Below, one piece after another: positions 36,819 to 41,053 of a stretch of DNA of 64,000 bases. Made by a program: the position numbers and the translations under genes. Where the stretch lies: positions 124,001 through 188,000 of the forward strand of contig SBEH01000001.1 of assembly GCA_009668945.1 (NCBI GenBank), given 5' to 3'. The notes beneath the pieces were generated by a model. That model had not been told where the DNA came from and ran no database searches. It saw nothing but the letters and a program-made list of their open reading frames with translations. Every line of letters starts with the position of its first letter. Within the stretch, counting starts at the first letter, position 1. Source of the DNA: Actinomycetota bacterium. Lineage in GTDB: Bacteria; Actinomycetota; Coriobacteriia; Anaerosomatales; Anaerosomataceae.

Positions 36819-38051
36819 ATGGCGCAAGAGGCGCACGGTGCGATCTACGACCTGCTTGCGGTCCGCGGCGTAAGCCGTCGTGACTTCCTCAAGTACTGCA
36901 GCTACATCGCTGCAACGCTTGGGCTGTCAGAGGCCGCAGCACCACAGATCGCCGCCGCGCTGGAGAAGGGCGCGAAGCTCAAGCCCGCACTCTGGCTCAA
37001 CGGCGGTTCGTGCACCGGCTGCACGGAGTCGATGGCTCAGGTCGATACTCCTGACGTCGCCACGATCGTCCTCGAACTGCTGTCCTTCAACTACTTCGAG
37101 ACGATCATGGCCGCCGCCGGCAAGCAGGCGGAGGACAACATCGCCGAGACCATCAAGGAAGGCAACTTCATCCTCGTTTACGAGGGCTCCGTCATGACGG
37201 GCCAGGACGGCAACACACTCATCGTCGGCAACAAGGAAGATGGCTCGCCCAAGAAGGGTACCGAGATCCTCGCCGAGGCTGCTACAGCGGCCCAGGCGGT
37301 CATCTCGGTCGGCGCGTGCGCAGTCGACGGCGGCTGGGTCGCTGCGTATCCGAACCCCGCAGGCGCGATGGGCGTTCAGGCCTTCCTCGACAAGGAAGGC
37401 ATCGCGACACCGGTCGTGAACATCCCCTGCTGCCCCATGAACCCCGAGTGGGTCGTGGCTATGGTCGTCCAGTGGCTGCTCGTGGCCGATGACGATCCGG
37501 CTGTCTTCCTCGAGAAGACCGCGCTGCTCACCAAGACCTATAAGGACGGCATCACCGGCGCGGATGTCACGCTCAACTACCCCGAATACGTCGTCGGCTC
37601 GACGATCCACGACAACTGCCCGCGTCGTGGCCACTTCGAGAACGGCGAGTTCGTCTCCGAGTTCGGCAGCGCCGAAGAGGCGATGGGCTACTGCCTCTAC
37701 AAGGTCGGCTGCAAGGGTCCGCAGACCTTCACACAGTGCCCGGTCACACGCTGGAACCGCTCGGTCAGCTGGTGCGTCAACTCCGGCGCCCCTTGCATCG
37801 GCTGTGGCGGCTTGAACTGGGTGGACAACAACGCCCCGTTCTTCAAGCGTCTGTCGAGCATGCAGATGGGTGGTTCGCTCGGCAACGTCCAGCCTGGCAG
37901 CGTCGCGGCTGTCGTCGGCGGCGTTGCGGCTGCCGCCCTTGTCGCCCACGGCCTCGGCATGAAGGCTGCCGGCCGCATCGGCGACGGTCCTCCGATGGAG
38001 ACCGCGAAGAAGTACGACCGCAAGCGGATGGCGAAGGGAGGCGATAAGTAA
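36819..38051 (+). CDS. hyaA: [NiFe(Se)] hydrogenase small subunit
   Basis: This subunit carries the Fe-S relay from the active site. The 410 residues begin with a Tat signal (RRDFLK at 20-25), so the folded heterodimer is exported. The proximal-cluster motif is GGSCTGC (C65, C68), with later ligands in VGACAVDG, PCCPMNPEW and CPRRGHFENGEF. In the segment WCVNSGAPCIGC, C319 replaces the proline usual in [NiFe] enzymes, which predicts a medial [4Fe-4S] instead of [3Fe-4S] cluster, as in [NiFeSe] enzymes. A C-terminal hydrophobic segment (VAAVVGGVAAAALVAHGLG) anchors it. The ATG at 36819 has AAGGAGGT. The stop overlaps the hyaB start in TAATG. Confidence 0.95.
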   Translation: MAQEAHGAIYDLLAVRGVSRRDFLKYCSYIAATLGLSEAAAPQIAAALEKGAKLKPALWLNGGSCTGCTESMAQVDTPDVATIVLELLSFNYFETIMAAAGKQAEDNIAETIKEGNFILVYEGSVMTGQDGNTLIVGNKEDGSPKKGTEILAEAATAAQAVISVGACAVDGGWVAAYPNPAGAMGVQAFLDKEGIATPVVNIPCCPMNPEWVVAMVVQWLLVADDDPAVFLEKTALLTKTYKDGITGADVTLNYPEYVVGSTIHDNCPRRGHFENGEFVSEFGSAEEAMGYCLYKVGCKGPQTFTQCPVTRWNRSVSWCVNSGAPCIGCGGLNWVDNNAPFFKRLSSMQMGGSLGNVQPGSVAAVVGGVAAAALVAHGLGMKAAGRIGDGPPMETAKKYDRKRMAKGGDK

Positions 38052-39718
38052 TGGCACGCACCGTCATCGATCCGGTCACCCGTATCGAGGGTCATATGCG
38101 GGTTGAGGTCGAGGTCAAGGACAACGAAGTCGTTGACGCCTGGGTATCCGGTACTCTGTACCGCGGCATGGAGACGGTCCTGTTGGACCGTAGCCCCGAG
38201 GATGCGTTCTACGTCTCCCAGCGCATCTGCGGCGTTTGCCCGATCTCGCATAGCCACGCGTCGGCCCAGGCGACTGAGTCGGCACTGGGCATCACGATTC
38301 CAGAGGGCGGACGTCTCGTCCGCAACATCCTCGAGTGCGCCCAGTACCTGCACAGCCACATCCTGTGGTTCTACAACCTGACCGGCCTCGACTACGTCAG
38401 CCCGGTCAACGCCCTCAAGGCGAACATCGCTGACACGTATGCGCTTGCCGATGCCGCTGGCACCCGTCAGGCGGACTTCGGCGCCATCGCGAAGCGCCTC
38501 ACTGCATTCGCCGAGAACGGCCAGCTCTCCATCCTCTCCGGCCACTACTGGGACCACCCCGGCTACGCACTTCCGCCGGAGCTCGACCTTATCGCCACCT
38601 CGCACTATCTCGAGGCTCTCGAGATGCAGGCCGTGGCCAACGAGGTCGTCGCCATCGTGGCCGGCAAGTTCTCGCACCCGATGACGTCGGTCCCCGGCGG
38701 CACCGCATTCGTGCCGACCGTTGACAAGCTCGACGACATCCTCTTCCGCCTCGTGCGGGTCAAGGAGTTCATCGACACGGCGCTCATCCCCGACACGCTC
38801 GCCATCGCTCCGTTCATCCTGGACGCGGCGACGTACGGCGGCGGCACGGGCAACTTCCTGAGCTGGGGTGTGTTCGAGAAGAGCGATCTCGTTCCTGAGA
38901 ACCGCTACCTGCCCCGCGGCTTCGCCCAGGGTCTCAAGCTCGACGCCGGTGTCAGCCCGGACGACGTCACCGAGTACACGGCTCACTCGTGGTACGAGTC
39001 GCCGACCGGTCTCAATCCCGCCCAGGGCGAGACCAAGGCGAACTTCACCGAGTACAACACCGACGAGAAGTACTCGTACGGCAAGGCCGCCCGCTGCAAG
39101 GACAAGTCCTCTGAGGTCGGCCCGCTCGCCCGTATGGTCGTCGCGTACCTCGCCGAGAAGGGCGGCATGGACGTCGCCGGCGGCGCGGACGTTCGTACAC
39201 CTGCCAAGCTCATCGACGGCACCCTGAAGGCCCTCGGCCTCGAGGGCAAGCCCGAGGTGCTGGTCTCTCTGCTCGGCCGCGTCGCTGCCCGGAACCTCGA
39301 AGCCGCGTACATTGCCGACATCGCGCTCGTGTTCGTGAACGAGCTGATCGCCGCGCTCAAGGGCGGCGAGGCCAAGTTCTGGCAGGCAGCCGAGACCGAC
39401 AAGGGCGCCGGCGTGGGCGCGTGGGAAGCCCCGCGTGGCTCGGTCGCCCACTGGATCGGCGTTAACGGTGGCAAGATCGATCACTATCAGATCGTCGCCC
39501 CGACCACCTGGCTCATCGCTCCGCGTGACGACAATGGCGTCCGCGGTCCGATGGAAGAGGGTTTCGTGGGTGTCCCGGTGGCCGATACTGAGAAGCCGCT
39601 CGAGCTGCTGCGAGTAGCGCACAGCTTCGATCCTTGAATCGGGTGCGCGGTTCACGTGTTTGAACCGGCAACCGGCAAGGAAGCGACTATCATGTCTTCC
39701 CCGCTGGGGGTGATGTAG
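38051..39718 (+). CDS. hyaB: [NiFeSe] hydrogenase large subunit, selenocysteine at an in-frame TGA
   Basis: This subunit holds the nickel-iron site that oxidises H2. The first motif, RICGVC, has C60 and C63. The frame reaches TGA at 39635-39637 right after SFDP, where the second motif needs D-P-C-x-x-C-x-x-H. Reading the TGA as selenocysteine (residue 529) gives D-P-U-I-G-C-A-V-H, with C532 and H535, then a 20-residue tail ending at TAG 39716-39718. The tail would be removed after H535 by the protease. The full product is 555 residues. If read as a stop, the 528-residue product would lack two nickel ligands. A SECIS-like hairpin follows the TGA. The start of hyaC directly abuts the true stop. 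Confidence 0.9.
39641..39673 (+). promoter_or_regulatory. Bacterial SECIS-like hairpin in hyaB
   Basis: CGGTTCA (39648-39654) pairs with TGAACCG (39661-39667) around the loop CGTGTT. The stem extends by TGC with GCA past a bulged G at 39647, then by two GC pairs after one mismatch. The loop starts 17 bases after the TGA and has G as its second base, which meets the known bacterial rules for SelB binding (16-37 bases, G within the first two loop positions). It lies inside the coding frame. Confidence 0.8.
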
Positions 39719-40351
39719 ATGGCAGGGCAGCCGCATTATCGTGAGGCGCACCCGCTGGTGTTCGTGATGACACACTGGGTCAACCTCATCTGCATGATCA
39801 TGCTCGCCTTCTCGGGCTTCTACATCCATTTCCCGTTCTTCCCCGGGTTCATGGGCGTAGCCCGCGGCATGCACTTCTTCGCGATGTACGTGATCATCAT
39901 CAACCTCACCTTCCGTATCGTCGCCGCCTTCACGGTGAAGACGGCCACCGACCTCGGAAGCCGCGAGGTGGACACGGACATCAAGAACTGGCTGCCGCAG
40001 GAGAAGAACAAGCACCAGTTCTTCGAGACGGTGAAGTACTACCTGTTCCTGCGCAAGGAAGGCGTCATCTCGGCCAAGTACGGCTCGCTCCAGAAGATGG
40101 CGTATCTGGCTACGATCCCGCTCACGTACCTGCAGGCGTACACCGGTTTCGCGATATACGGCCCGACCATGAAGGGCGGGTTCTTCGCAGCCGGCACGAC
40201 TCTGGTGGGCGGCCCGATGAACATGCGGATCATCCACTACTTCATCATGTGGGTGTTCATCGTGTTCACGATGATCCACGCCTACCTCGCGAACATCTAC
40301 AACTTCAATCCGAGCAAGATCATCTTTGCTTGGAAGGAGACGGACCACTAG
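39719..40351 (+). CDS. hyaC: Hydrogenase b-type cytochrome subunit
   Basis: This membrane subunit passes electrons from the hydrogenase to the quinone pool. The 210 residues have four membrane segments with histidines placed for two b hemes: HPLVFVMTHWVNLICMIML, GMHFFAMYVIIINLTFRIV, and RIIHYFIMWVFIVFTMIHAYL near the C-terminus. It begins at the base after the hyaB stop codon, so it is translated only if ribosomes reach that point or start anew; GGGGGTGATG lies upstream. Confidence 0.93.
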   Translation: MAGQPHYREAHPLVFVMTHWVNLICMIMLAFSGFYIHFPFFPGFMGVARGMHFFAMYVIIINLTFRIVAAFTVKTATDLGSREVDTDIKNWLPQEKNKHQFFETVKYYLFLRKEGVISAKYGSLQKMAYLATIPLTYLQAYTGFAIYGPTMKGGFFAAGTTLVGGPMNMRIIHYFIMWVFIVFTMIHAYLANIYNFNPSKIIFAWKETDH

Positions 40352-40425: not shown

Positions 40426-40465
40426 AGTCATGACCCGCAGGGCTCGCCCGGAAGGGAACGCACGC

Positions 40466-41053
40466 GTGATGGAAGCGACTCCGAGGATCCTGGTGCTCGG
40501 CATCGGCAACATCCTCATGATGGACGAGGGCGTCGGCAATCGCGTCGCCGTCGAACTCGAGCGCAACTTCGCCTTTCCGGAGGACGTACGCGTCATGGAC
40601 GCGGGCACGATGGGCCTCGGGATGATGCACCTCTTCCGCGGCGTCGAGTTCCTGCTCGTGGTCGATGCTGTCGACGGCACCGGGCATCCCGCCGGGACCG
40701 TTGTCCGCGTCTCACCCGACGACTTCGCGCCGAATCAGGTACTCCACTCACTCCACGACGTGCGTTTCGTCGACGTGCTGCAGGCCGCCAAGCTCATCGG
40801 CATCATGCCGGAGGCCGACTGCATCGGCATCCAGGTGGAGAACATGAGCCCGCCCGAGCTGCATATCGGGCTCACCGAGGTCGTCGAGGCGGCAATCCCG
40901 CGCGCGCTAGCGGCAGTCCTCTACGTGCTCGAGGAACGCGGCGTCGAGGCCGAACCGCTCGTAGGCGGAGATGCCGACGCGGCGTTCCAGGCGTCGGTCG
41001 CCGAGGCGAAGGCGGACGTCGAGCGACGGCAGAAGCAGGCTGAAAGACCCTAG
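40466..41053 (+). CDS. hyaD: Hydrogenase maturation endopeptidase
   Basis: This protease removes the C-terminal tail of the large subunit after nickel insertion. The 195 residues contain LVLGIGNILMMDEGVGNRV, with the acidic metal ligand, VVDAVDGTG with a second one, and SLHDV with the histidine ligand. Its presence fits the 20-residue tail predicted after H535 of HyaB. GTG at 40466 has AGGGA 8 bases upstream; ATG at 40469 is equally possible. The stop shares the CTAG palindrome with the convergent transketolase gene. Confidence 0.92.
   Translation: MMEATPRILVLGIGNILMMDEGVGNRVAVELERNFAFPEDVRVMDAGTMGLGMMHLFRGVEFLLVVDAVDGTGHPAGTVVRVSPDDFAPNQVLHSLHDVRFVDVLQAAKLIGIMPEADCIGIQVENMSPPELHIGLTEVVEAAIPRALAAVLYVLEERGVEAEPLVGGDADAAFQASVAEAKADVERRQKQAERP

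Follow-up and report, generated by a model that had tools for sequence, protein, structure and literature searches.

A probable cytochrome b-linked [NiFeSe] uptake hydrogenase lineage in Coriobacteriia, with an in-frame UGA predicted to encode the terminal nickel ligand

Does the TGA inside a hydrogenase large-subunit gene of an Actinomycetota genome end the protein, or does it encode one of its metal ligands? In the window, by which we mean the whole 64,000-nucleotide stretch of DNA analysed here, the frame runs from an ATG at 38051 to a TAG at 39716-39718 and contains a single internal stop, a TGA at codon 529 of 556. Standard ORF calling yields a product of 528 amino acids, the short protein that an earlier note on this DNA had expected from standard annotation. 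The elements of the gene are these:

38051 to 39718, + strand: hydrogenase large subunit, 555 amino acids with selenocysteine as residue 529 (PF00374, 491 bits across the TGA)
38228 to 38239, + strand: N-terminal nickel motif C60-G-V-C63 (RICGVC), invariant in the alignment
39635 to 39637, + strand: TGA codon taken to encode selenocysteine as terminal ligand of nickel (DP-U-xxC)
39656 to 39715, + strand: C-terminal extension, 20 residues after the conserved His, delimited by sequence and tail comparison

As the earlier note had read them, S-F-D-P precedes the TGA, and I-G-C-A-V-H, a 20-residue tail and TAG follow. The codon stands at the first nickel cysteine of the second nickel motif (DP-U-IGC-AVH). 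At the equivalent position of the alignment, a metal ligand, solved [NiFe] homologues have Cys. A genome search found no full-length group 1 large subunit in the source genome other than this gene. Two marks of [NiFeSe] hydrogenases, a UGA in frame where the C-terminal DPCxxCxxH motif has its first Cys and selenocysteine (Sec) decoding machinery in the genome, were both found. We propose that this is the large-subunit gene of a [NiFeSe] uptake hydrogenase bound to the membrane and that its UGA is decoded as Sec529, and we are close to certain of this explanation as a whole.

If the TGA were a true stop, the gene would be a decayed or truncated hydrogenase, and a standard ORF finder does end the frame at this codon. 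We searched for homologues in 61 genomes, the source genome and 60 relatives, and found a large-subunit homologue with one internal TGA in 55. Two of these (G014 and G018) have a second, Cys-type copy besides the Sec copy, and another genome (G040) has a Cys-type copy only. A collection scan added 80 further named loci. Direct reading placed the TGA at the DPU position in 56 Sec-type loci with 39 distinct downstream sequences, at the same codon in every one of them, which is far more than chance would give. Both the TGA and the frame after it are kept across genera, down to 55-60% protein identity, while differences in the tail are silent or conservative and the remainder of the frame is intact. 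Moreover, Cys paralogues of the same order show the same continuation after a Cys codon, and Cys also occupies the TGA position in Eggerthella, Slackia, Gordonibacter, Adlercreutzia and others sampled. These observations make a true stop extremely improbable.

The same survey bears on a sequencing or assembly error in which TGC was read as TGA, an outcome that the earlier note regarded as fatal to a selenocysteine reading. A single base separates TGA from a Cys codon. However, dozens of independent assemblies have this TGA too, among them a 1.84-Mb scaffold of EMTCatB1 (L079); this refutes the explanation and leaves it with a vanishingly small probability. The TGA loci also include Anaerosomatales bacterium Yes46-06, which falls in the window's family; judging by the named relatives, this family probably belongs to Anaerosomatales (OPB41) within Coriobacteriia.

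The same order also contains distant large subunits (L050-L062) that end right after CIACAVH, with TAG or TAA, and have no protease-removed extension. We considered UAG recoding in these other hydrogenases and rejected it, TAG being an ordinary stop right after CIACAVH.

The earlier note held that a genome without any selenocysteine machinery would contradict its reading. The source genome (1.92 Mb, 99% complete) encodes selA, selB, selD and a tRNASec with anticodon UCA, which lie together:

L017:2243-7289 (G000, contig C21): cluster of selD, a YedF-like frame, selA, selB and tRNASec

The matches are strong for selB (371 bits, cut-off 242), selD (377 bits, cut-off 125) and selA (526 bits); the YedF-like gene was assigned by reading its translation alone. 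At its active site selD, too, contains an in-frame TGA, as is common in this gene, and it provides a second example of Sec use in the source genome. TGA is also an ordinary stop in this organism, because prfB (RF2) is present and TGA ends 17 of the 38 longest non-overlapping ORFs of the window (mechanical ORFs). This is relevant to the idea that another residue, such as Trp or Cys, enters at the TGA through a variant code or general read-through. A lone in-frame TGA does not tell which residue is inserted, and to that extent the idea is reasonable. Against it stand RF2 and the many ORFs that end in TGA, the presence of tRNASec(UCA) and selB, the need for a metal ligand at this position and a SECIS-type hairpin after the TGA that is missing in Cys relatives. 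We give it hardly any credence and favour selenocysteine as residue 529.

The hairpin lies directly behind the codon:

39639 to 39675, + strand: SECIS-like stem-loop, supported by folding, covariation and a codon-preserving null

Its robust upper stem has 7 bp (39648-39654 paired with 39661-39667) and closes a 6-nt loop, CGUGUU (39655-39660). The loop begins 17 nt after the TGA, where the earlier note had placed it. In the folded model, the lower stem reaches 39639/39675 and so begins 1 base after the TGA rather than 4, as that note had it. Published limits for bacterial SECIS elements are a loop of 3-9 nt, a stem of 4-16 bp, a G in the first two loop positions, a spacing of 16-37 nt and an MFE of -7.5 kcal/mol or lower (PMC13188914), and the window hairpin lies within every one of them. 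An Rfam scan of the region returned no family matching the hairpin.

With an MFE of -19.2 kcal/mol over 45 nt, the window hairpin beats 99.5% of 2000 redraws in which the protein was kept and synonymous codons were redrawn (z -2.5, p 0.0055). Under this null the mean z was -1.67 in the 39 distinct Sec sequences versus +0.20 in 73 Cys sequences. The hairpin is therefore no by-product of the protein sequence. Pairing tells the same story: 94.5% of the upper-stem pair cells are formed across the 39 Sec sequences, a count favoured by the gap that we placed by hand, to fit the structure, in the one-base-shorter loop of the VHVVDT hairpin subtype, whereas 49% of the same pairs are formed in the 73 Cys sequences. 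Three of the seven upper-stem pairs vary, each with changes on both sides, and together they give 31 cells changed on both sides, versus at most 17 in 1000 shuffles. Slid alignments of the hairpin gave at most 9 such cells and 49% pairing. The limits, the covariation and the absence of the structure from Cys relatives uphold the earlier proposal of a bacterial SECIS-like hairpin behind the TGA. Together with the Sec machinery and the conserved TGA, the covarying hairpin supports the selenocysteine reading of that note.

The neighbouring genes indicate what kind of enzyme the large subunit belongs to:

36819 to 38051, + strand: hydrogenase small subunit, 410 amino acids (PF14720, 102 bits; PF01058, 86 bits)
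39719 to 40351, + strand: b-type cytochrome subunit, 210 amino acids (PF01292, 83 bits, above cut-off)
40430 to 41053, + strand: hydrogenase maturation endopeptidase of the HyaD/HupD family (PF01750, 88 bits; TIGR00072, 117 bits, above cut-off)

The small-subunit gene starts behind an RBS-like AAGGAGG and its stop overlaps the large-subunit start by 1 nt. The protein has a Tat motif (SRRDFLK) and a hydrophobic C-terminal anchor (residues 362-380). The cytochrome subunit scores 101 bits against TIGR02125, under that model's cut-off of 121.5. Its ATG follows directly on the read-through TAG at 39716-39718, and its RBS-like GGGGGTG sits in the last codons of the 20-residue tail; were the TGA the end of the large subunit, a gap of 81 nt would precede the cytochrome gene. 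The Tat signal, the anchor, the b-type cytochrome gene and the maturation protease gene, the hyaD whose presence the earlier note had recorded, are together those of a respiratory uptake hydrogenase with cytochrome b. The small-subunit medial-cluster motif, SWCV..GAPCIGC, has Cys where [3Fe-4S] enzymes have Pro, and from this ligand a [4Fe-4S] medial cluster is expected. We dropped this Cys as a marker of [NiFeSe] enzymes: it is common to the Cys-type relatives and thus not diagnostic.

We infer the following course of events. SelB carrying Sec-tRNASec would bind the hairpin just 3' of the UGA at 39635-39637, placing selenocysteine at residue 529 as the terminal ligand of nickel; the ribosome would then continue via Cys532 and His535 to the TAG. 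After nickel insertion, the HyaD-type protease is expected to cut off the 20-residue tail. The heterodimer would be exported by means of the small-subunit Tat signal, and electrons would pass from H2 to the b-type cytochrome and on to quinone.

Could the enzyme encode selenocysteine and yet be a classical [NiFeSe] enzyme of the Desulfovibrio HysA type, gained by transfer? The Sec position is the same, the hairpin is similarly placed and both are group 1 large subunits. However, in an unrooted tree of 116 rows the window clade, made up of 26 Sec rows and a single Cys row (L094), has as its sister the Cys-type clade of Coriobacteriia that holds Eggerthella and Slackia, with support of 100* for both together. 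HysA-like Desulfobacterota enzymes and a second actinobacterial Sec clade fall elsewhere. The AU test rejects one clade of the window enzymes with the HysA-like rows (p = 1e-4), these rows being Desulfobacterota matches chosen for their TGA. Grouping with the second actinobacterial Sec clade is likewise rejected (p = 3e-4). The window enzyme scores 474 against a cut-off of 600 in one NCBI [NiFeSe] model and 407 against 780 in the HysA model (NF045518), so that automatic naming as HysA is not warranted; the Cys relatives are below cut-off as well, and the models are therefore uninformative on Sec. The window enzyme thus reaches neither the NF045518 cut-off nor a common clade with HysA-like enzymes, and its operon has a dedicated cytochrome b. 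Acquisition of a HysA-type gene is very improbable: the window enzyme is not classical HysA-type but belongs to a separate, cytochrome-b-linked [NiFeSe] lineage.

How did this lineage come to use selenocysteine? Change in either direction is conceivable at the base of the window clade in the unrooted tree; a separate gain is the simpler interpretation, since Cys-type enzymes predominate among the nearest outgroups. The Cys-type row nested in the Sec clade (L094, JAIRWZ010000155.1) keeps the G of UxGC (CVGC) and has no hairpin, and it is likely a Sec-to-Cys reversal. We think it rather probable that Sec in the Coriobacteriia respiratory hydrogenase arose independently of the HysA lineage and that a quinone-linked [NiFeSe] enzyme is the standard H2-uptake enzyme of Anaerosomatales. 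If so, selenium is required for growth on hydrogen by organisms that are neither sulfate reducers nor methanogens.

The second Sec clade (DPUMACxVH; L063, L067-L069, L169, L171, L172, L174-L180) occurs in other Actinomycetota and in some genomes of the same order. In three of its members the medial-cluster motif of the small subunit contains Pro (SWPV); these are predicted to combine a [3Fe-4S] cluster with Sec, unlike known [NiFeSe] enzymes.

A different use of TGA appeared in some Desulfobacterota group 1 large subunits (L189-L193, L204, L208-L210, L216, L218, L219). Here the N-terminal RxCGxC motif has an in-frame TGA in place of its second Cys (CxxU), in the contexts RSCGV-U-TYTH and RICGV-U-TTVH, and the C-terminal DPCxxC is normal. 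It was read in nine genomes (G134, G145, G155, G184, G197, G564, G586, G669, G724). A strong hairpin follows in two distinct sequence types, CTGTCCTC-GGT-GAGGGCAG or CAGCTC-CGTGA-GAGCTG, and close Cys relatives have no hairpin at this place. By homology to [NiFe] structures, we take this second Cys to bridge Ni and Fe, and judging from these sequences the N-terminal TGA would be a natural bridging selenocysteine. Sec has been engineered into E. coli Hyd-2 at each of the four Cys positions, and all the resulting enzymes were active (PMC11212049), which makes a natural bridging Sec plausible on chemical grounds. We found no description of bridging Sec in hydrogenases in the papers searched.

What is new about the window enzyme is its context: this [NiFeSe] hydrogenase is respiratory, membrane-bound and linked to a cytochrome b, and it comes from Coriobacteriia. 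A 2026 review describes [NiFeSe] hydrogenases as exclusive to sulfate reducers and methanogens (PMC13188914), and a 2016 paper ties the genes to few sulfate-reducing deltaproteobacteria (PMC4730141). A search for literature on NiFeSe in Coriobacteria or Actinobacteria and on group 1i with selenocysteine, which covered few subscription papers, turned up nothing contrary. [NiFeSe] hydrogenases are valued for fast H2 production and oxygen tolerance, but those described so far are from a small number of sulfate reducers and methanogens; any oxygen protection of the window enzyme is putative. With the window clade, dozens of new natural sequences join this set; their membrane partner is a different one, and they have close sisters with Cys. 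Genomes with Sec and Cys paralogues side by side (G014, G018) provide a natural experiment on the role of selenium. Standard gene calling also cuts short the enzyme by which a widespread subsurface lineage mainly oxidises H2.

Known systems share different parts of this design. HysAB of Desulfovibrio and Desulfomicrobium (HydDB group 1a variants; PDB 5jsu, 1cc1) resembles the window enzyme in having Sec as the terminal Ni ligand in DPUxxCxxH, a SECIS hairpin right behind the codon, a C-terminal tail and Cys as the fourth medial-cluster ligand. It differs in that HysAB scores 285-308 bits to the window enzyme, versus 395 for plain [NiFe] enzymes of Desulfovibrio, and forms a separate clade by the AU test, and in that the window operon has a b-type cytochrome and a membrane anchor and comes from Actinomycetota. 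The second actinobacterial Sec clade has Sec at the same ligand and the same GGTTCACGTGATTGAACC hairpin, but is ~45% identical, lies in a separate clade and includes the three members whose medial-cluster motif contains Pro.

In the HydDB table, only groups 1a, 3a and 3c have [NiFeSe] variants, and group 1i is entered as Coriobacteria-type with an undetermined role (PMC5037454). The group 1i enzymes of Anaerosoma tenue and Parvivirga hydrogeniphila, compared here through their published description alone, have the same four components (large subunit, small subunit, cytochrome b, protease) and are probably of the same order, but were published as [NiFe]; the paper describing Anaerosomatales presents the four-gene cluster as Group 1i [NiFe] and mentions no Sec in it (PMC9686372). 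Published Group 1i [NiFe] labels in Anaerosomatales should be reconsidered. The group 1i [NiFe] enzymes of Eggerthella, Slackia and Gordonibacter form the sister clade and share the small-subunit SWC motif and a cytochrome b-like start directly downstream. The window enzyme thus groups with group 1i by tree placement (sister clade, branch 100*), but it lacks the all-cysteine nickel site of Eggerthella and Slackia: all sampled enzymes of that type have Cys, no hairpin and CxAC, whereas the window clade has Sec and UxGC.
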